64,000 bases of DNA, taken from a virus. The DNA is taken from IMG/VR virus record IMGVR_UViG_3300009183_004297, positions 1-64,000 of that record; one strand, written 5' to 3'. The notes under the pieces were generated by a model that was given only the letters and a program-made list of their open reading frames with translations, made no database searches and was not told the DNA's origin. Numbering within the stretch: position 1 is the stretch's first letter; each line of letters opens with the position of its first letter. Shown here piece by piece: positions 9,076-32,595 of the stretch. The translations under genes and the position numbers were made by a program.

Positions 9076-9083
9076 TATTTATG
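9076..9083 (-). promoter_or_regulatory. Late-type promoter element 4 nt before dps start
   Basis: Minus-strand CATAAATA (7 of 8) overlaps the stop codon of the upstream radical SAM gene and ends 4 nt before the Dps ATG at 9071. Predicted +1 falls within the ATG, so an mRNA would have essentially no leader. Confidence 0.4.
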
Positions 9084-10200
9084 TCTTTATAATCGAATCC
9101 AACTCAGACCAAAGTTCTCTAAATTTGCCAGTTGAGTATTTTGTTTCGTATTCTGCTGTCCATGCACGGAACTCTGAGTCACGTTCGCGTTCTGGAGCAA
9201 TGGCCAGTTGTTTTTCTAGATGCTTCAAGAACTCATCACCGTGTATATAGCCCACCATTACAGGATTGTCTAGTACTTGTTGTATTTTTTCACGTGCCAG
9301 TTCACGTACTGGTTCACTGAAGTTGCTGACATTGAGTTGTGCAGGAAATTGTAGTTTTTGCCAGTGTATGTTTACTCTTGCGGCTCGTGCAAAGTTATAG
9401 TAGTCCACTAGGTTGGTCACAGTGTAGATGTTGAACACAGGAAATATTGTTACCAAGTGTCCCGGAATACGGCGCAAAGTAACTATGTTGGCTTTGATTT
9501 GCTCCCAGTTGGCACCATTGCGTACATATTCAAATTGCGGGCCTACATTGTCCATGCTCACATGCCAGCGCACATTGGTTCGTTGTTTTAGTACATCAAA
9601 CACAGGAGACTGAGCCAGTGGCACACTGAGGTTGGTGATAAGATCAACAGTGACCGACTGATCCAGTTCTTCTAGCAGTCGTATGTTTTGTTTGTGCAAC
9701 AGCGGTTCTCCCCCAGCTAGCATGGCACTTTTCATTGTGGCGGTGTTTTGTTGTATGTAATTCAACACCGTGGTGTAGTAGTCAAAGTACATGGGCTTGA
9801 TAGGAATGTTCTTGGCCTGCTGCCAGGTTGTGCTCCAGCGTTCGTCACAGTACACGCATTTGAGATTGCACAAGGTATTCCAACGTATGTCCACTGTTTG
9901 TAATTCAAACGTGGTAGGATCTGACAGCTGGTCTTGTTCTAAGGTGAATTGATCGTAGTACTGACGTTGACTTGATCCTGAGGTGTTTTCTGCGTCTCGG
10001 CAGTAGGTGCAGTATGCAGGTATTTGGCCTGCCAGCATCTCTTGCCGGATTTCAATCACTCGAGGATCTCGGAGTATTTGGTCCAGTGGAGTTGTGTTTA
10101 GGTCGCCCCATTCCCATGTGCCTGCACAGCAACTTTTGACTTTGCCGTCAGTGTGAATGAATAATCCGGTCCAGGGGCTGGTACAGTATACGCTAGGCAT
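9079..10200 (-). CDS. Radical SAM protein with N-terminal twitch-like cysteines
   Basis: 373 aa. The radical SAM Cx3Cx2C motif is CNLKCVYC (about residues 110-117), followed by a LAGGEPLLH segment matching the GGE SAM-binding motif. Before the motif lie CTSPWTGLF, VKSCCAG and AYCTYCRDAE, resembling auxiliary-cluster (twitch/SPASM) cysteines placed N-terminally. Such proteins commonly modify peptides or small molecules through a 5'-deoxyadenosyl radical. The substrate is unknown; no precursor-peptide gene is evident beside it. It is the first of three radical SAM proteins here and shares the N-terminal cysteine architecture with the one at 31498-32595. It overlaps the upstream membrane-protein gene by 8 nt. 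Confidence 0.85.
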   Translation of the reverse strand: MPSVYCTSPWTGLFIHTDGKVKSCCAGTWEWGDLNTTPLDQILRDPRVIEIRQEMLAGQIPAYCTYCRDAENTSGSSQRQYYDQFTLEQDQLSDPTTFELQTVDIRWNTLCNLKCVYCDERWSTTWQQAKNIPIKPMYFDYYTTVLNYIQQNTATMKSAMLAGGEPLLHKQNIRLLEELDQSVTVDLITNLSVPLAQSPVFDVLKQRTNVRWHVSMDNVGPQFEYVRNGANWEQIKANIVTLRRIPGHLVTIFPVFNIYTVTNLVDYYNFARAARVNIHWQKLQFPAQLNVSNFSEPVRELAREKIQQVLDNPVMVGYIHGDEFLKHLEKQLAIAPERERDSEFRAWTAEYETKYSTGKFRELWSELDSIIKT

Positions 10201-17117: not shown

Positions 17118-17840
17118 TTATTTATCTTCAGCTAAACAACGGAATTCATCAATTGATCTAATAAAATGTGGATTGATCATCTTTATCATTGTGGCAATTC
17201 CTGCATCATGAGCATAGATATAACTACCCCAGATATACCGACTTTTAGCTTCGCCTAGTGACTCTCTGAGACTCTGTGGTAAATGTACTTCATCTCCAAG
17301 CGCCGCAAGATAGGCCAACAACTGTTCTTTACTTTCTGTGGAGTATTTTGCTTCTCTAGTGTTGAATCTGTATTGCCATTTGCTGGGCTTGGCTGTTAGT
17401 ACATAGCCTTTGGCCAGCATGTTTGCGCCATCTTGATTTTCGGGCACACAGACTGAACGCAAGTATGAAGCATCAAGTTTGGACGCAATAGACTTCATGA
17501 CATTGAGATCATTGGTATACAGTTGCATCATTGGATCTTCAATGCGTTTTTTAACATCTGTATCGTAGTCGGGCAGGATGTTTTCTAAAGATTCAACAAA
17601 CGCACGTTCTTGAAAGGTTGGTACAGGTGAACGGTCGCCGCGCCAGCTACCGCCGTAGTTTATTTGTCTGCGTTTTTCACGGTCTTGGCAATAGGCCATC
17701 ATGGATGAAAATCCACCTCGCAAGTATGCCACACCTGTGCAATGCAGTTCTAATCGATAGGCATACTTACCAAAGAATAACTTGGTAGTATGCTGTATCT
17801 TAAGATTAGGATTTAACGACGTCCAGAACAATGTATCCAT
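17118..17840 (-). CDS. Hypothetical protein overlapping the clpA 3' end
   Basis: About 240 aa starting MDTLFWTSLNPNLKIQHTTK at 17840; the frame is open further upstream to 17894 but inside the clpA-like gene. It overlaps that gene by 35 nt in another frame. The body contains KLFFGKYAYRLELHCTGVAY, a Pro/Arg region, VCVPENQDGANMLAKGYVLT and a C-terminal helical SRYIWGSYIYAHDAGIATM. The layout is soluble alpha/beta with no known motif. I do not recognise it. The start is uncertain because no good SD is visible before any candidate. Confidence 0.6.
   Translation of the reverse strand: MDTLFWTSLNPNLKIQHTTKLFFGKYAYRLELHCTGVAYLRGGFSSMMAYCQDREKRRQINYGGSWRGDRSPVPTFQERAFVESLENILPDYDTDVKKRIEDPMMQLYTNDLNVMKSIASKLDASYLRSVCVPENQDGANMLAKGYVLTAKPSKWQYRFNTREAKYSTESKEQLLAYLAALGDEVHLPQSLRESLGEAKSRYIWGSYIYAHDAGIATMIKMINPHFIRSIDEFRCLAEDK
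17119..17126 (-). promoter_or_regulatory. T4-type late promoter element
   Basis: Minus-strand GATAAATA (7 of 8), 27 nt upstream of the 54-aa gene ATG, overlapping the stop region of the next upstream gene. Confidence 0.5.
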
Positions 17841-20103
17841 TTTCGTCCACAATAGGAGGTGAATCAAAGTTTGTACTTTGAATGTCAAATTCAAACTTTC
17901 CGGCAGCGTAATTGACTGTGATCAAGCTATTGGGTTCAACAGCTTCAAACAAAATCTTCTTACTCAATGGCACCTTGACTAGATCATTGATCTTGCGGCC
18001 CAGTGGCCTAGCACCCATCTTGGGATCAAATCCTTGCCGGATCAATTCAGTTGTTGCATCTTCGCTCAGTCTCACTCGCAATGCTTTGTCACTCAGTAGG
18101 TCATTCATTTCATTCACAAACTTGGTAACAATCTTGCGCATGGAGAACTCATCCAGCTTGCTGAACTTGCAGATGCCGTCTAGCCTGTTACGAAACTCTG
18201 GCTTGAAGAATTCCTTGACTGCTTTGTCATCTTCGTCTGACTTTTGCAGTTCACGACCAAAGCCAATGTTGTTACGCTCATTATCAGCCGCACCTAAATT
18301 ACTTGTTAGAATAATAATAGCATTACGACAGTCAGCTTTCTTGCCATTGCTACTTGTGACTGTGCCTTCGTCCATCATGCTCAACAAGATGTTGCTCACA
18401 TCAGGATGTGCTTTTTCAACTTCGTCAAACAAGATCACACAGTTGGGATTCTTTTCAATCTCACTGATTAGCAAGCCGCCACCTAGGTTGCGATCGTCGT
18501 AGCCAACATACCCGGGGGGAGCACCTACAAGTTTGGCAATTGAATGCTTTTCTTGGTACTCGCTCATATCATATCGTAGTAGTTTCATCCCGAGATATTC
18601 AGCTAGTAGTTTGCTAAGTTCAGTTTTACCTGTGCCAGTTGGACCCAAGAACAAAAAGTTACCAATTGGTTTGTTGATTGGTTTCAGACCTGCACGGCTG
18701 ACATAAATGCGTTCCAGCACCGAGTCAACCACAGGGTCCTGTCCATACAAGCGACTCTTGATTTGCACATCTAGGTTTGACAAGTTCTTGGTAGTGTTGC
18801 TGTCATTGCCCAGTTGTTCAATTGGGATCTTAGTAAACTTGCTGACAATCTCAATGATGTGACTGCGTGTGACTGTGAAGTCATCCTGTGCAATTTTTAA
18901 CTTGGCACTCGCAGTGTCTATTAGATCAATGGCCTTGTCTGGCAGTTTCTTGTCTGTTTGATATCGCACACTCAGATCCACAGCGGCATCAATTGCTTCG
19001 TCTGTGATGTGTCCTTTGTGGAACTCTTCAAAGTGCGGACGCAGGCCACGCAAGATTTCTTTTGCCACAACCGGAGTGGGTTCATCAATAGTCATACGAT
19101 AGAATCTGCGCATGAGCGCACGATCCTTTTCAAAACTACCTGTGTACTCTTCCCACGTGGTTGACGCAATGACTTTGAGTTGACCCTTGCCCAGTGCAGG
19201 CTTGATCATGTTGGCAAAGTCCACACTACTACCTGATCCAGATCCAGCGCCACGCATTTGGTGTGCTTCGTCGATGAACAAAATAGTCTTGCCCATGACC
19301 TGCAGAGATTTGATAACCTCTTTGAGCTTTTCTTCAAACTCTCCGCGATACTTTGAACCTGCCAGTAGATTACCAATGTCCAGATTGTACACTGTGTAGT
19401 CTTTGAGATATGCAGGAACTTCGCCGTTGATGATCTTACGTGCTAGTCCTTCTGCAATAGCAGTCTTGCCCACACCAGGGTCGCCTACCATTAACACATT
19501 TGATTTGTTGCGTTTGGCCAGCACTTGTGCAATTTCTTCCAGCTCGTGTTCACGACCAATCACAGGATCAATCTTGCCATCCTTGGCCTGCTTGTTGAGA
19601 TCATCACAGAACTCAGCCAGCACTTCAGCGGCCCGACTCTTCACAGCGGTCTTGCGACTGCGAGCTTCTTTGTAGTGCTTGTTGTAAAACTCTGTGATAC
19701 GAGCACGATCCAAATCATACTTGAGCAAGAAGTAGTTGGCATAGCTGTTGCTTTCGCCACCAATGCTCAAGAAGATGTCAATCACCTGCACATGATTGCG
19801 TCCTGAAAACAACACCTGGGTCAAGGCACGGTTGAACACACGCTCTAGGGCATGTGTTTTTCTTGGAGTATAATCATCGCTTCCTTCCACAAGACAATCC
19901 GCACGTGATGCATTGTAAGCATCAAGGTCATTGGTCATGCCGTCTGTGTCGGTACCAAATTTTTCCAGTAACTGATTAAAGGGTTTGTAGCTGACCAATG
20001 CGTATAGCAAATGCTCAAGGGTCACATATTCATGACGGTGCTTTTTGGCACTGTCAGCGGCCATTGAGATAATGGTTTCAATTTCTGGATTGTTTTGAAT
20101 CAT
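17806..20103 (-). CDS. clpA: ClpA-type AAA+ unfoldase
   Basis: 765 aa with the ClpA/ClpC order: N-domain with a double Clp repeat (HEYVTLEHLLYALVS), first AAA+ module with Walker A GDPGVGKTAIAEG (about residue 206) and Walker B ILFIDEAHQ, second module with GPTGTGKTELSKLL (about 485) and VILFDEVEKAHPD, then the C-terminal D2 small domain. No ClpB-type middle domain is present. The loop NNIGFG (about 610-615) aligns with the IGL/IGF ClpP-docking loop of ClpA (ERKSIGLI), so it should dock on host ClpP and direct proteolysis. An exact late promoter TATAAATA lies 19 nt upstream. No phage ClpP or ClpS is seen in the window. Confidence 0.93.
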   Translation of the reverse strand: MIQNNPEIETIISMAADSAKKHRHEYVTLEHLLYALVSYKPFNQLLEKFGTDTDGMTNDLDAYNASRADCLVEGSDDYTPRKTHALERVFNRALTQVLFSGRNHVQVIDIFLSIGGESNSYANYFLLKYDLDRARITEFYNKHYKEARSRKTAVKSRAAEVLAEFCDDLNKQAKDGKIDPVIGREHELEEIAQVLAKRNKSNVLMVGDPGVGKTAIAEGLARKIINGEVPAYLKDYTVYNLDIGNLLAGSKYRGEFEEKLKEVIKSLQVMGKTILFIDEAHQMRGAGSGSGSSVDFANMIKPALGKGQLKVIASTTWEEYTGSFEKDRALMRRFYRMTIDEPTPVVAKEILRGLRPHFEEFHKGHITDEAIDAAVDLSVRYQTDKKLPDKAIDLIDTASAKLKIAQDDFTVTRSHIIEIVSKFTKIPIEQLGNDSNTTKNLSNLDVQIKSRLYGQDPVVDSVLERIYVSRAGLKPINKPIGNFLFLGPTGTGKTELSKLLAEYLGMKLLRYDMSEYQEKHSIAKLVGAPPGYVGYDDRNLGGGLLISEIEKNPNCVILFDEVEKAHPDVSNILLSMMDEGTVTSSNGKKADCRNAIIILTSNLGAADNERNNIGFGRELQKSDEDDKAVKEFFKPEFRNRLDGICKFSKLDEFSMRKIVTKFVNEMNDLLSDKALRVRLSEDATTELIRQGFDPKMGARPLGRKINDLVKVPLSKKILFEAVEPNSLITVNYAAGKFEFDIQSTNFDSPPIVDENGYIVLDVVKS

Positions 20104-20121: not shown

Positions 20122-20129
20122 TATTTATA
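20122..20129 (-). promoter_or_regulatory. Exact T4 late promoter TATAAATA upstream of clpA
   Basis: Perfect TATAAATA on the minus strand ending 18 nt before the clpA-like ATG; AGAGGAACT SD follows. It overlaps the end of the dnaJ-like gene. Confidence 0.65.
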
Positions 20130-20964
20130 GACTGGATCTTACTTTTTCAAGTAATTCTCGTTGTTCATGACTGAGGTTACGCGGCACACCAATTGACACT
20201 CGGACCACTAGATGCCCGCGATTGGGCTGTCCAGTTTCCCAAAGTCCTTGATTGGAGATTCTAAATTTAGAATCATGTTGCGATCCTGGGGGAATAGTTA
20301 CACTAAAGATTCGTCCTTCCAAGTTAGGAACATCAATTGAAGTTCCCAGCATGGCATCCAGTGCTGTGATCTTTATTGGATACACAAGATCCAGTCCTTC
20401 ATTGGTGAACCGAGCGTCGGGTATGATACGGAACTGTACATACAAGTCACCACGTGCAATACCAGCATGTGTATTGTCACCCAGTCCAGAGTAACGTATG
20501 TTGGTGCCTTCTGTGACACCACGTGGAATGTTGACTTGAACATTTTCTCTGTGCCCGTTTCCAGTTTGTACAGCAATGTTCTTGACTTGATCCTGCATGG
20601 TGTCTGCCAGCTCAAGTTGAATTTCCACTCGAATGTCTCTGTTGCGCTGTGGTCTGCGGAACTGTGCAAACGGGTCATGCCCAAATGGACTGCCGCCTTG
20701 CCCAAACATTTGACTCAGGATGTCATCCATGTTGCCAGTGTTGAAATTGAACTGGAAACCACCTTGAGGTTGTGGATTGTTGTATTGGGCACGTTTGTCG
20801 GAATCACCCAGCGTGTCGTAGGCTTCTTGTATCTTCTGGAATTGGGCTTGATCACCACCGCGGTCCGGATGGTGTTTCATCGCTAGTTTGCGATAAGCCT
20901 TTTTAATGTCATCTTCGCTGGCGTCTCGAGCAACGCCTAATATAGAGTAGTAGTCCATTCGCAT
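20125..20964 (-). CDS. dnaJ: DnaJ/CbpA-type co-chaperone
   Basis: 279 aa; the likely true start is the second ATG at 20958 (MDYYSILGVARDASEDDIKK). The J-domain carries HHPDRGG (HPD motif) near residue 32. A Gly/Phe-rich linker follows (GGFQFNFNTGNMDDIL), then two C-terminal substrate-binding domains ending HEQRELLEKVRSSL. No zinc-finger CxxCxGxG repeats, so it is the CbpA type. It should stimulate ATP hydrolysis of DnaK, which this phage also encodes in full. A sigma70-like promoter, a hairpin and a late-type element lie upstream. No SD precedes either ATG. Confidence 0.93.
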   Translation of the reverse strand: MRMDYYSILGVARDASEDDIKKAYRKLAMKHHPDRGGDQAQFQKIQEAYDTLGDSDKRAQYNNPQPQGGFQFNFNTGNMDDILSQMFGQGGSPFGHDPFAQFRRPQRNRDIRVEIQLELADTMQDQVKNIAVQTGNGHRENVQVNIPRGVTEGTNIRYSGLGDNTHAGIARGDLYVQFRIIPDARFTNEGLDLVYPIKITALDAMLGTSIDVPNLEGRIFSVTIPPGSQHDSKFRISNQGLWETGQPNRGHLVVRVSIGVPRNLSHEQRELLEKVRSSL

Positions 20965-20993
20965 AGTTTACACGTTAATTAACCATGTGTCAA
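20965..20993 (-). promoter_or_regulatory. Sigma70-like promoter abutting dnaJ start
   Basis: Minus-strand TTGACA (20988-20993), 17-nt spacer, TAAACT (20965-20970). The spacer contains the palindrome GTTAATTAAC (20974-20983). Standard geometry puts +1 near 20958, the A of the second ATG of dnaJ, predicting a leaderless early transcript. Confidence 0.5.
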
Positions 20994-21023
20994 GCAAAGA
21001 TCCCTTGAAAGGCAATCTTTGCT
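20993..21023 (-). promoter_or_regulatory. Inverted repeat between late promoter and dnaJ
   Basis: AGCAAAGAT (20993-21001) pairs perfectly with ATCTTTGCT (21015-21023); inside, CCT/AGG can extend the stem around a TGAA tetraloop. It would be in the 5' leader of a transcript from the late-type element at 21038-21045. No T-tract follows, so it is not a typical terminator. Confidence 0.55.
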
Positions 21024-21037
21024 GACCGTTATGCAAA

Positions 21038-25901: not shown

Positions 25902-26942
25902 ATGATCCAGTATGAACAAATCAAAGAGGTACATCTTGAGTTAAGTACCAACTGTAACGCCAGCTGTCCTCTTTGTCCTCGCAACTTCTATGGGTATCCG
26001 CACAACGGAGGATATCCCATCACAGAACTATCTCTTGAAGATGTTCAGTCTATACTCAGCCCAGAATTTTTGCAACAATTAAAAATTGTGCAGATCAATG
26101 GCAACCTAGGTGATTTTATGCTGGCACGTGATGCACTTGCTATTGTAAAATACTTTCGAGAATCAAACCCACTCCTACGAATAGATATCAGTACCAATGC
26201 TGGCGCCAGGACAGATGCATTCTGGCAAGAGCTGGCACAGTACAAACCAGTGGTACGTTTTTGCATCGACGGACTAGAAGACACTCATTCTTTGTATCGC
26301 AGAGATACACAATTCCAAACAGTCATACAACATGCACGTGTGTTCATTGAAGCAGGCGGCCATGCCATTTGGAAAATGATTAAATTTGATCACAATCAAC
26401 ATCAAATTGACGAGTGCCGCACACTGTCCTGGCAACTGGGGTTTGCAAGTTTCAACAGTGTCGACCACGGCCGCAACAACGGTCCTGTGTTTGATCGTGA
26501 AGGCAAGCATGTATATTCAATTGGCGAAACTGTGCAGTACCATGATCCTGCCACACTAATAGACTGGCGCCGACAAAGCATCAACAAACAAGAACACTAT
26601 ATTCATCAGGTGCATGAAAAAATCACATGTGACACTGTTACTAAAAAAACAATTTATATCAGTGCGGCAGGCGATGTTTACCCTTGTTGCTATCTTGGCT
26701 TCTTTCCTAGAACATACGGATCAGACCTGTACCACGGCAATGATCAAATAAAACAGTTACTAAACGGAGTAGAAAACAATGCCAAACAAAAACCACTCCG
26801 CGAATGCATAGAGTGGTTTAATGCTGTGGAAGAATCATGGCGTCAGGATTCTTTTGAGTCTGGTAGACTATGGCGATGCAATCACCATTGTGGATCTAGT
26901 TCACGACCCGCACCAGCTCAAATATCTCAGACCAGTTCTTGA
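25902..26942 (+). CDS. Radical SAM protein with C-terminal SPASM-like cysteines
   Basis: 346 aa. Motif CNASCPLC (about residues 18-25) begins the radical SAM barrel, followed by NGNLGDFML and RFCIDGLEDTHSLYRRD. The C-terminal half carries AAGDVYPCCYLGFFP and CNHHCGSSS, a SPASM/twitch auxiliary-cluster pattern. This is the usual order, unlike the other two radical SAM proteins here, which have such Cys before the barrel. Substrate unknown. The start lacks an SD, and ATTAAATA lies 6 nt before the ATG. Its last 47 bp overlap the convergent HAD gene. Confidence 0.85.
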   Translation: MIQYEQIKEVHLELSTNCNASCPLCPRNFYGYPHNGGYPITELSLEDVQSILSPEFLQQLKIVQINGNLGDFMLARDALAIVKYFRESNPLLRIDISTNAGARTDAFWQELAQYKPVVRFCIDGLEDTHSLYRRDTQFQTVIQHARVFIEAGGHAIWKMIKFDHNQHQIDECRTLSWQLGFASFNSVDHGRNNGPVFDREGKHVYSIGETVQYHDPATLIDWRRQSINKQEHYIHQVHEKITCDTVTKKTIYISAAGDVYPCCYLGFFPRTYGSDLYHGNDQIKQLLNGVENNAKQKPLRECIEWFNAVEESWRQDSFESGRLWRCNHHCGSSSRPAPAQISQTSS

Positions 26943-27493: not shown

Positions 27494-27522
27494 GAAAACA
27501 AATTAGGGGGCCTAAGCCCCCT
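27494..27522 (-). terminator. Rho-independent terminator after dnaK
   Basis: On the minus strand AGGGGGC-TTAG-GCCCCCT (27505-27522) forms a perfect 7-bp GC-rich stem with a 4-nt loop. It is followed by AATTTGTTTTC (27494-27504), a U-rich tail. It lies 4 nt after the dnaK stop and separates dnaK from the HAD gene. Confidence 0.85.
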
Positions 27523-27526
27523 GTTA

Positions 27527-29446
27527 TTATTTGCTGTCTTTTACTTCCGTAAAGTCAGCATCCACCACTGTTTCATCTCGGGGCTTTTCGGCCTTGGCCT
27601 GATCAGTGTCTTTTTGCTGTTGGTCCGCAGTGGCCTGTCCCACTACATCATACAACGGCATGAACTTGGGAGCAGTTGCTACCAGCGTTTCTTGAATCTT
27701 TTCAGCATCCTCACCTGCAATGGCACCACGTACTTCTGCAATGGCCTTGCTGATTTCTTCAACTTGTTCTTCGCTTAGTTTATCACCATGCTCTTTCATG
27801 TTCTTTTCAACACCCCATAGCTGATGCTCTGCGGCATTACGGGCTTCAACCAGCTCACGTTGCTTTTTGTCTGCGTCAGCATTGGCTTCAGCATCAGCAA
27901 CCATTTGCGCAATCTCAGCTTCACTCAGTCCAGAGTTGGCCTTGATGGTGATGTTGTTGCTCTTGCCTGTGACTTTGTCTTTGGCACTTACTTTCAAGAT
28001 GCCATTCACGTCCACATCAAATGTAACTTCAATCTGTGGTGTACCACGTGCGGCAGGAGGAATGCCATCCAGGCTGAACTCACCCAACAGTTTGTTGTGC
28101 TGAGCCATTTCACGTTCGCCTTGGAATACTCTGATTGTGACAGCAGGCTGGTTGTCTTCCGCAGTGGAGAACACTTGGCTACTCTTGGTAGGAATAGTTG
28201 TGTTCTTTGTGATCACCTTGCTCATGATGCCGCCCATGGTTTCGATACCCAGGCTCAGTGGAGTAACGTCCAGCAACAGAACGTCTTTGCGTCCGCCACC
28301 CAGTACATCACCTTGGATGGCAGCACCAGCGGCAACTGCTTCGTCGGGGTTCACGTCTTTGCGTGGCGCTTTGCCAAAGAAACTTTCCACGTAACCTTGT
28401 ACCATTGGCATACGTGTTTGTCCACCAACCAGCACCACATCATCAATGTCACTGGCACTTAGTCCAGCATCAATCAAGGCCTGGCGGCATGGCTCGATAC
28501 TACGTTCCACTAGATCCGTTACCAAGGCTTCTAGCTTGCTACGGCTTAGTTTGATAGCCATGTGTTTGGGGCCACCTGCATCTGCTGTGATGTACGGCAG
28601 ATTTACTTCAGTTTGCGCACTTGAGCTAAGTTCAATCTTTGCTTTCTCTGCCGCGTCCTTTAGACGTTGCAGTGCCAGAGTGTCTTTGCTTAGATCAATG
28701 CCCTGTTCCTTTTGGAACTCTTCAACCAGGAAGTTGATAATGCGTTGGTCAAAGTCTTCACCGCCCAGGAATGTGTCTCCATTGGTAGCAAGAACTTCAA
28801 ACTGCATATCGCCATCAACGTTTACAATCTCAATAACTGATACGTCAAACGTACCGCCACCTAGATCATACACCGCAATCTTGGCATCCTTCTTGGCGCC
28901 TTTGTCCAGGCCGTATGCCAGTGCGGCTGCTGTGGGCTCGTTGATGATACGCAGTACTTCAAGTCCAGCAATCAGACCTGCGTCTTTGGTTGCTTGGCGT
29001 TGACTATCATTGAAGTATGCAGGCACTGTGATCACCGCTTGGGTCACTGCTTCGCCCAGGTAGTCCTCTGCGGTCTGCTTCATCTTGCGAAGCACTTCTG
29101 CAGAGATTTGTGGAGGTGCTAGTTCACGATCTCCTGCTTTGATCCAAGCATCTCCATTGGCCGCTTCCATCAAAGTAAACGGCATCTGCTTGATATCTTT
29201 TTGCACTTCTTTGTCTTTGAACTTGCGCCCAATAAGACGTTTGGCGGCAAAAATTGTATTTTTGGAATTTGTGACTGCCTGGCGCTTGGCGCTTGCACCT
29301 ACTAGAACTTCATCATTAGCGTATGCAACAATAGATGGTGTTGTACGTGCGCCTTCTGAATTTTCGATTACTTTTGGTTTGCCGTTTTCAATAACAGCCA
29401 CGCATGAGTTTGTGGTACCCAGATCGATACCTATGATTTTAGCCAT
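27527..29446 (-). CDS. dnaK: Hsp70 chaperone DnaK, full length
   Basis: 639 aa, nearly the same length as E. coli DnaK (638). Nucleotide-binding domain: [17 protein letters not shown] at the N-terminus, [31 protein letters not shown] and [13 protein letters not shown]. The linker region [11 protein letters not shown] starts the substrate-binding domain. The lid and C-terminal tail end [13 protein letters not shown], closely like the proteobacterial EEVKDKK tail, so this looks acquired from a proteobacterial host and kept intact. It works with the DnaJ-like protein of this phage; GrpE is not seen here. Its own exact late promoter, a 5' inverted repeat and a terminator make it a single-gene unit. 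Confidence 0.97.
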
Positions 29447-29471
29447 TCTTATTCTCCTTTAACAAATGGTG

Positions 29472-29504
29472 TTGTACGCAGACCCAATCGGCATCTGCGT
29501 ACAA
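29472..29504 (-). promoter_or_regulatory. 11-bp inverted repeat in the dnaK leader
   Basis: TTGTACGCAGA (29472-29482) and TCTGCGTACAA (29494-29504) are perfect inverted copies around an 11-nt loop. It lies between the exact late promoter and the ATG, so it would be the first structure in the mRNA. The geometry recalls CIRCE-type operators of chaperone genes, but the sequence differs. It could be an operator, a stabilising 5' hairpin or a thermosensor. Confidence 0.65.
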
Positions 29505-29505
29505 A

Positions 29506-29513
29506 TATTTATA
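29506..29513 (-). promoter_or_regulatory. Exact T4 late promoter TATAAATA upstream of dnaK
   Basis: Perfect TATAAATA on the minus strand; +1 predicted near 29500, giving a leader of about 54 nt that contains the inverted repeat. Confidence 0.65.
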
Positions 29514-31147: not shown

Positions 31148-31505
31148 GGGGTCCCTCCTGATCTATTTCTTTTTGCAGTCGTTCCACAACGCCAGTTAGA
31201 TAGGTTGGATCTAGTTGTGCCATTATGCGAGTGATATAGTCGCTGTAGTTGGTAAAGAAGTATTCAAAGATCTCGTCAAAGGCACCTTCACTTTTGAAAG
31301 TGTTGCGTATGACTGTATGGTTGTTGAGATCTAAGATAACATGAGCAGTTTGGTCTTTGGTGCCAAGTCTGCGCACAATTTCTACCTTCTCATCCCACTG
31401 CACATTGTCAGGATTATCCATCCAGCCCTTTTGACTTGTTTTTACTCCTGGGCGTGGTTTACGAAAGTACCAGGCTACCAAATGTATGTTGTGTTTTCTA
31501 GACAT
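31125..31505 (-). CDS. Hypothetical protein, 126 aa
   Basis: N-terminal basic segment (RKHNIHLVAWYFRKPRPGVK), then WMDNPDNVQWDEKVEIVRRL, a VILDLNNHTVIRNTFKSEG strand pair, and a helical FDEIFEYFFTNYSDYITRIM tail. Overlaps the radical SAM gene by 8 nt. No recognised family. It may be a partner or substrate-related protein for the radical SAM enzyme, only by position. Confidence 0.6.
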   Translation of the reverse strand: MSRKHNIHLVAWYFRKPRPGVKTSQKGWMDNPDNVQWDEKVEIVRRLGTKDQTAHVILDLNNHTVIRNTFKSEGAFDEIFEYFFTNYSDYITRIMAQLDPTYLTGVVERLQKEIDQEGPHEEVTTQ

Positions 31506-32595
31506 TGAAATTTACTCCTAGATAGTCTTGATGATTGATTTTTCTTCGTTGGTCGATACTGTTTATATATCCACGTAGCAGGTCAGAGTTGCCTGTTTTT
31601 TCTACCTGTATATGAGCATGATCAACGACTCGTTTGAATGCCATGTCGGTGCTGTAAAAACGACAATCTTGTAATTTTGTTAACTGTTGCTTTGCCAAGA
31701 ACTTGAACTGCGTTGGTAGGTTTTCTATCAGCAAGGTATCGGGCATGACAAGGTTTTCTATGTTCCAGTGGTCTGCATATTCTTCTATTTCAATCAGTTG
31801 TCCAACACCAAGCACACTCACAGCATCTATCACAGTGTTGAACATGATATTGTTTTTGCCCACAAAGTCTTTTGCTTGGTTAAGATTACGCATGAACTTG
31901 GCCCAAACAAGAGGCCAGCGATGATATGCATTCACCTGACCAAAAGCATCTACGCTCACTACCAATGTAAGATTCTTAATAAGAGATAACTGTGCAAAAG
32001 TTTCATCGCTTACGCTGGTTAAGTTGGTGTTGATTACTAGTTCGGGTTGTTGTTCCTGTTGAGAAATAGCGGCTATCAACTTCAAGCATTCGTCAATCAG
32101 CAATGGCTCGCCGCCAGCTAGATACACATACTTGGCTTCCAACATCTTGTGGTGATTGAACGGAACTGGAGTACTGGGCGGCATGCCTAGCTCGCGGGCC
32201 CACAAACTGCTGGCGCCATACCAACACATCACACAACCTAGATTGCAGGTATTGTCAGCACGTAGGTCATAGGAAACAATGTCAGGAAGTTGTCCTGTTT
32301 GCCAAGAAGAAAGATATTGCTTTACCTCAGGGTCTTTTAACCAACGTACGGTGTGTTTTTGTCTTGGACTAATTTGCCCGGATGCTTCCAAGTTGTAACA
32401 GTTGTTGCAGTGAGCAATAGGCTGACCATTCCATATTTGCTGACGTAAACTATCGCTGTGATCATCAAACACATCACCAATTGGCAAGTTTGAATCACAA
32501 CAGAGATAGTTCTTTTTAAGTACGCCCTGGTGCTGGTGTATAAACGGCAGTGCGCAAAAGGTCTTGTTACCAAGACGCTTTAGGATATCTGACAT
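31498..32595 (-). CDS. Radical SAM protein with N-terminal twitch-like cysteines
   Basis: 365 aa. CNLGCVMC near residue 117 is the cluster motif, and YVYLAGGEPLLIDEC carries the GGE motif. N-terminal FCALPFIHQHQG, NYLCCDSNL and HCNNCYNLEASG form an auxiliary-Cys region before the barrel, the same architecture as the protein at 9079-10200, so these two may be distant paralogues. Substrate unknown. It sits between the clamp-loader gene (16-nt overlap) and a small hypothetical gene, which suggests co-expression with replication genes. Confidence 0.85.
   Translation of the reverse strand: MSDILKRLGNKTFCALPFIHQHQGVLKKNYLCCDSNLPIGDVFDDHSDSLRQQIWNGQPIAHCNNCYNLEASGQISPRQKHTVRWLKDPEVKQYLSSWQTGQLPDIVSYDLRADNTCNLGCVMCWYGASSLWARELGMPPSTPVPFNHHKMLEAKYVYLAGGEPLLIDECLKLIAAISQQEQQPELVINTNLTSVSDETFAQLSLIKNLTLVVSVDAFGQVNAYHRWPLVWAKFMRNLNQAKDFVGKNNIMFNTVIDAVSVLGVGQLIEIEEYADHWNIENLVMPDTLLIENLPTQFKFLAKQQLTKLQDCRFYSTDMAFKRVVDHAHIQVEKTGNSDLLRGYINSIDQRRKINHQDYLGVNFNV

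Follow-up and report, generated by a model that had tools for sequence, protein, structure and literature searches.

Short two-hairpin ROSE-like thermometers have been demonstrated experimentally in the ibpA leaders of Pseudomonas (PMC3669281). These leaders combine a stable hairpin I with a hairpin II that carries U(U/C)GCU, and they precede a small heat-shock gene (PMC3669281). The phage leaders described here share this plan, but the Pseudomonas elements are bacterial and were established by experiment, whereas the phage leaders are predicted from sequence comparison. Only a few thermometers are on record from phages, namely those of lambda cIII, SP-beta blyA and a sigma-70 gene of a gut phage (PMC10586365, PMC11182007). 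They too are RNA thermometers in phage mRNA leaders, but those of blyA and the sigma-70 gene are reported to be of the fourU type, and no chaperone gene is among the three. No description of a ROSE-type leader on a phage chaperone gene came up in a literature search that lacked most subscription journals, nor did a relevant paper joining phage, hsp20 or cyanophage with an RNA thermometer. Thus, while both short two-hairpin ROSE thermometers and a few phage thermometers are known, ROSE-type leaders on phage chaperone genes appear to be new. Phage-borne chaperones have so far been treated as plain auxiliary genes; hsp20 occurs in hundreds of named phage records, and the phage studied here carries dnaK.

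The window analysed is a stretch of viral DNA of 64,000 nucleotides (positions 1 to 64,000 of IMG/VR record IMGVR_UViG_3300009183_004297). On its minus strand the order is TATAAATA-T-TTGTACGCAGA-TGCCGATTGGG-TCTGCGTACAA-CACCATTTGTTAAAGGAGAATAAGA-ATGGCT, the last six bases being the start of dnaK. A first-pass annotation had reported a perfect 11-bp inverted repeat with an 11-nt loop in this leader, directly after an exact promoter. A complementarity check confirmed the repeat, as TTGTACGCAGA (29472-29482) and TCTGCGTACAA (29494-29504) form perfectly complementary 11-bp arms around an 11-nt spacer, and TATAAATA was indeed found at 29506-29513 on the minus strand. The features of the locus are the following.

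29506..29513, minus strand: TATAAATA, T4-late-type promoter box (exact match)
29472..29504, minus strand: hairpin I, 11-bp stem and tip (complementarity, covariation in relatives, restriction to dnaK and hsp20 leaders)
29443..29469, minus strand: predicted hairpin II, window type (folding and shuffled-linker control)
29461..29465, minus strand: UUGUU, decayed counterpart of U(U/C)GCU (comparison with other phage leaders)
29454..29460, minus strand: Shine-Dalgarno sequence AAAGGAG (sequence)
27527..29446, minus strand: dnaK, 639 aa (open reading frame)
27505..27522, minus strand: terminator-like hairpin directly 3' of dnaK (consensus scan only)

Because a terminator-like hairpin comes after dnaK, the dnaK unit looks to be made up of promoter, leader, gene and terminator. 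We take the repeat to be, with a probability of roughly 0.7, hairpin I of a two-hairpin ROSE-like, thermometer-like leader of a kind that T4-type phages place before dnaK and hsp20.

As RNA, the helix of hairpin I reaches three pairs further into the 11-nt 'loop'. Its tip consists of a U29493-G29483 pair, a bulged G29492, CC/GG (29491-29490 with 29485-29484) and the loop GAUU. No exact copies of the inverted repeat were found elsewhere. Two repeats with perfect arms of at least 11 bp and a loop of at most 30 nt occur in the window, against a mean of 0.87 per Markov-random 64-kb sequence, so that the repeat alone is not significant at the scale of the window and the case rests on its place and conservation.

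Scanning IMG/VR with DnaK gave 80 loci. In every leader with a DnaK identity of at least 68% a hairpin directly follows TATAAATA, GATAAATA or CATAAATA, those with loops other than 11 nt having been recognised by eye; the search in related phages that the first-pass annotation had proposed as a check thus yielded conservation in all dnaK relatives above this limit. The leaders of DnaK relatives at about 57% identity (L031 onward) show no such hairpin. Named phages hold no dnaK relative above 70% identity, and their best dnaK matches may be bacterial sequence within phage records.

The stem sequences vary widely (TTTGCATACAGG/CCTGTATGCAAA, TTTTCATGCAGG/CCTGCATGAAAA, TTGTAGA/TCTACAA) and the tip is constant, U-R-C(C)...G(G)-G, so that the conserved architecture comprises a stem, a Y-G pair, a bulged purine and C(C)..G(G). 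In 15 aligned hairpins 95.2% of the cells pair and eight of the eleven pairs show two-sided changes. The covariation score is 0.845, compared with 0.254 for shuffled and at most 0.38 for slid alignments, in rows that were selected for an 11-nt loop and whose relatedness inflates the comparison with the shuffles. Twelve of these hairpins have U-G as the apical pair and three have C-G, and the bulged purine lies on the 5' side only. Among 82 leaders with a script-found hairpin, a few of which were assigned the wrong one, 62 carry a bulged G and 17 a bulged A, and the upper helix measures 2 to 5 bp with matching changes. If the leaders are of ROSE type, ROSE hairpin I gains a strongly covarying set for comparison, in which the bulge is conserved.

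A bulged purine below a short helix could also be read by an RNA-binding protein of phage or host, hairpin I then being a translational operator. The conservation of the purine and the Y-G pair would suit such a reading, and the geometry recalls that of the coat-protein operators of RNA phages. We nevertheless regard this as improbable, as the variable length of the upper helix and the free loop sequence are unlike a fixed protein site, and no candidate protein is known. That the repeat arose by chance (64 kb should contain about 0.9 of this kind) or is a terminator is hardly credible: its conserved place, covariation and gene specificity refute this on comparison, and no U-tract comes after it.

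If the T4 rule holds, the predicted +1 of the dnaK mRNA is A29500, the sixth nucleotide after the promoter box, in which case the outer 4 bp of the repeat fall upstream of the transcript. This phage encodes a phage-type DNA polymerase and a clamp loader, both of a T4-like kind, which fits the T4-late reading of TATAAATA. NATAAATA lies at most 5 nt ahead of hairpin I in 52 of 84 phage dnaK and hsp20 leaders, and in 45 of these 52 the sixth nucleotide after the late box is a purine. In most late-box leaders the predicted +1 would lie close to the foot of hairpin I, and for this reason hairpin I may protect the 5' end of the mRNA. The window holds just two exact copies of TATAAATA; the second (20122-20129) is situated just upstream of clpB (17806-20103, minus strand) and is without a hairpin after it.

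In CIRCE/HrcA control, too, an inverted repeat stands at the start of chaperone genes, and the first-pass annotation had proposed CIRCE-like geometry for a phage-specific element where the dnaK mRNA is predicted to begin. The phage-specific element, its predicted 5' position and the late-type promoter before it have held up; the CIRCE-like DNA operator has not. CIRCE is a conserved DNA sequence, whereas in the phages the arms are free and the features conserved are those of RNA. A search of the window for CIRCE (TTAGCACTC-N9-GAGTGCTAA) that allowed as many as 3 mismatches found nothing. Since only the pairing of the arms is kept, and since the U-G pair and the one-sided bulge are RNA features, hairpin I appears to act as an RNA structure rather than as a DNA operator. 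An operator for an HrcA-like or phage repressor would keep sequence and symmetry, and hairpin I keeps neither. We thus consider such an operator very improbable, even though the perfect arms overlap the promoter region and their outer 4 bp precede the predicted +1, with one of these pairs covarying in L007.

A covariance model of hairpin I alone (R1) was searched in 33 whole phage records (about 3.0 Mb). All 22 matches below E = 0.01 precede dnaK or hsp20, two of them far from dnaK, and some copies directly before hsp20 lack a late box. That a phage element probably controls the heat-shock gene, as had been suggested, is supported by this confinement of similar leaders in relatives to dnaK and hsp20. 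The window record, a fragment, contains no hsp20. A second model (R2), built solely from IMG/VR leaders, matched at the expected place with E < 0.1 in 14 of 14 inspected hsp20 leaders of named phages, the weakest matches having E values of 0.02 and 0.079. These phages, cyanophages among them, include P-SSM4, P-SSM7, Syn33, S-SM2, Bellamy, S-CRM01, HTVC008M, Mosig, Melnitz, Phosso and PA5oct. R2 found nothing at E ≤ 0.01 in 12 bacterial genomes reached via DnaK matches or in 274 genomes sampled for the class of G034, hence no recent bacterial source was found.

A clpS-like gene adjoins hsp20 in G004 and G002 (L226 and L227, respectively) and in phage PA5oct (L322), and a ClpX-like gene lies near hsp20 in L226 and L227. 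Read from this neighbourhood, hsp20 and the clpS-like gene, with the ClpX-like gene in L226 and L227, may form a phage proteostasis cassette.

Among Rfam families ROSE_3 is the best match for the phage leaders. In a narrow scan the window leader scored 19 bits (E 0.033), with GAUGCC..GGGUC aligned to hairpin I of ROSE_3. Over 25 phage records ROSE_3 gave five matches at E ≤ 1, all of them dnaK or hsp20 leaders (best 2.2e-7), and the alignment spans both hairpins and the AUG. At 20 hsp20 loci it was the sole family at E ≤ 0.1, with six matches (best 42.6 bits). None reached the ROSE_3 (RF02523) gathering cut-off of 43 bits, and Rfam at gathering cut-offs returned no match. Rfam's own models also detected ROSE_3 and ROSE_2 in hsp20 leaders of named phages. 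The likeness to ROSE_3 extends to the two-hairpin plan, with GAUGCC..GGGUC and a bulged G in hairpin I and, in hairpin II, U(U/C)GCU facing the Shine-Dalgarno sequence, followed by AUG, and to the position in the leader of heat-shock genes. The phage leaders differ in scoring below the cut-off, in occurring also on dnaK, often at the start of a T4-late promoter, in pairing with the start codon and, in the window copy, in being without the U(U/C)GCU core. A gammaproteobacterial match precedes an hsp20-like start. ROSE_3 gave no match in 114 genomes sampled for the class of G041, a set in which the controls were silent as well, so that absence is not implied. The freshwater-2 family (RF02980) was rejected, with 22.4 bits at the window leader against a cut-off of 49.9 and equally weak matches in all 25 records; away from dnaK it reached 44.4 bits (L082 1501-1576, G007) and 34.6 bits (L083 1501-1571, G002).

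Between hairpin I and AUG the leaders of relatives read CUUGCUU or CUUACUU, then, after a few nucleotides, AAGGAGA. U(U/C)[G/A]CU opposite AAGGAG is the core of ROSE thermometers and here forms part of a second hairpin, with A at the bulge position in one dnaK clade. The motif occurs in 41 of 45 hsp20 leaders and, leaving the window group aside, in each of the 17 distinct dnaK leaders; among 231 other genes with a Shine-Dalgarno sequence it was found in none under strict and in 12 under loose criteria. Immediately ahead of the motif lie bases that pair with the start codon and following codons of the same gene, forming the outer stem of hairpin II, as in AGCCA/AUGGCU, GUCAU/AUGAC, UUGUUC/GAACAA, CGUUC/GAACG and UAGUCA/UGACUA. 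The mean duplex energy is −4.34 kcal/mol for matched and −2.59 kcal/mol for mismatched combinations. The matched mean was reached in 0 of 5000 permutations (hsp20 alone 0 of 5000, dnaK alone 3 of 5000), figures that are indicative, since relatedness makes the leaders non-independent and hsp20 leaders without the motif were omitted. The leaders of several relatives open modestly with rising temperature in silico, under an energy model that ignores the non-canonical pairs of ROSE cores. An extra small hairpin of the GGGCAUGGUGCCC or GAGCAUAGUGCUC type lies between hairpins I and II in some leaders (dnaK L008-L010, L012, L015, L016, L030; hsp20 L265, L287).

The window leader has in common with ROSE-like elements its place in the 5' UTR of a heat-shock gene (dnaK, and hsp20 in relatives) and at least two hairpins, of which the 5' one is stable. 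The window and its nearest relatives, L002-L007, have UUGUU in place of UUGCU and have lost the loop ahead of AAGGAG, so that the Shine-Dalgarno sequence cannot pair in ROSE fashion. The U(U/C)GCU core with a bulged G opposite the Shine-Dalgarno sequence is thus missing from the window copy, which is for this reason not classed as a canonical ROSE element. The hsp20 leaders L226 (G004) and L227 (G002) retain UUGCU, hence the loss of the core is specific to dnaK in this lineage. In the predicted fold, common to L002-L007, CCAUUU (29469-29464) pairs with GAAUGG (29448-29443), closing the start codon and leaving the Shine-Dalgarno sequence open in the loop. The pairing CCAUUU:(A/G)AAUGG over AUG has a computed energy of −5.8 kcal/mol at 20 °C and −2.7 kcal/mol at 37 °C, and the predicted probability of an unpaired AUG rises from 0.01 at 20 °C through 0.13 at 50 °C to 0.40 at 60 °C. 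Across these six leaders, between 0 and 7 of 300 shuffled linkers closed AUG equally well; no covariation of CCAUUU:AAUGG was seen within the window subgroup. According to this folding model the window copy is a variant with a decayed anti-Shine-Dalgarno core in which CCAUUU clamps AUG. A fourU thermometer was considered and rejected, the window leader reading CCAUUUGUUAAAGGAG, without UUUU opposite the Shine-Dalgarno sequence.

In the mechanism that we propose, the late promoter would start the mRNA at or within hairpin I, which would remain folded, cover the 5' end and hold the remainder of the leader in register. The best-supported division of labour makes hairpin I the unchanging 5' element and gives hairpin II the role of switch. 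Hairpin II would shut the translation start at low temperature and melt when warm, allowing heat induction, with more chaperone made when proteins misfold. In most relatives it would close both the Shine-Dalgarno sequence, by U(U/C)[G/A]CU, and AUG; in the window dnaK and its nearest relatives only AUG would be clamped. Sequence comparison itself establishes the two hairpins, how they are conserved, their restriction to chaperone genes and the pairing of the leader with the start region; the temperature response is inferred from the likeness to ROSE and from folding.

Hairpin I might instead be merely a 5'-terminal stabiliser of late chaperone transcripts, hairpin II having no part in thermosensing, at least in the window copy. 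Its beginning at or near the predicted +1 and the loss of the anti-Shine-Dalgarno core in this copy agree with such a role. We consider it unlikely, because hairpin I also occurs immediately before hsp20 without a late box, the ROSE core and start pairing are retained in nearly all relatives, and a simple stabiliser would have no need for a chaperone-only distribution.

If the thermometer reading is true, the translation of phage chaperones is intrinsically temperature-controlled in the manner of bacterial ROSE elements, and temperature control of infection becomes directly testable in cultured cyanophages and Pelagibacter phages. We would give even odds to a wider proposal, in which T4-type phages of many hosts, with model cyanophages among them, govern a chaperone regulon via ROSE-type thermometers, often at the +1 of late promoters, and the window dnaK lineage represents a new sub-type that clamps the start codon instead of the Shine-Dalgarno sequence.

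A further hairpin lies upstream of dnaJ.

20993..21023, minus strand: dnaJ upstream hairpin with the same tip as hairpin I, U[G]CC..GGG (sequence; stem different in L098, with matching changes)

It had been described as of different sequence; the shared tip indicates that it is not unrelated to the dnaK hairpin. No ROSE-type hairpin II was seen in the dnaJ leader. Downstream of the hairpin, TTGACA-N17-TAAACT/TAGAAT abuts ATG with no Shine-Dalgarno sequence (window 20964-21030, minus strand; L098, L099), perhaps a sigma-70-type promoter giving a leaderless dnaJ mRNA. Elsewhere in this one phage fragment, three proteins with the CxxxCxxC motif typical of radical-SAM enzymes were noticed by eye (CNLKCVYC, CNASCPLC and CNLGCVMC; open reading frames at window 9079-10200, 25902-26942 and 31498-32595).
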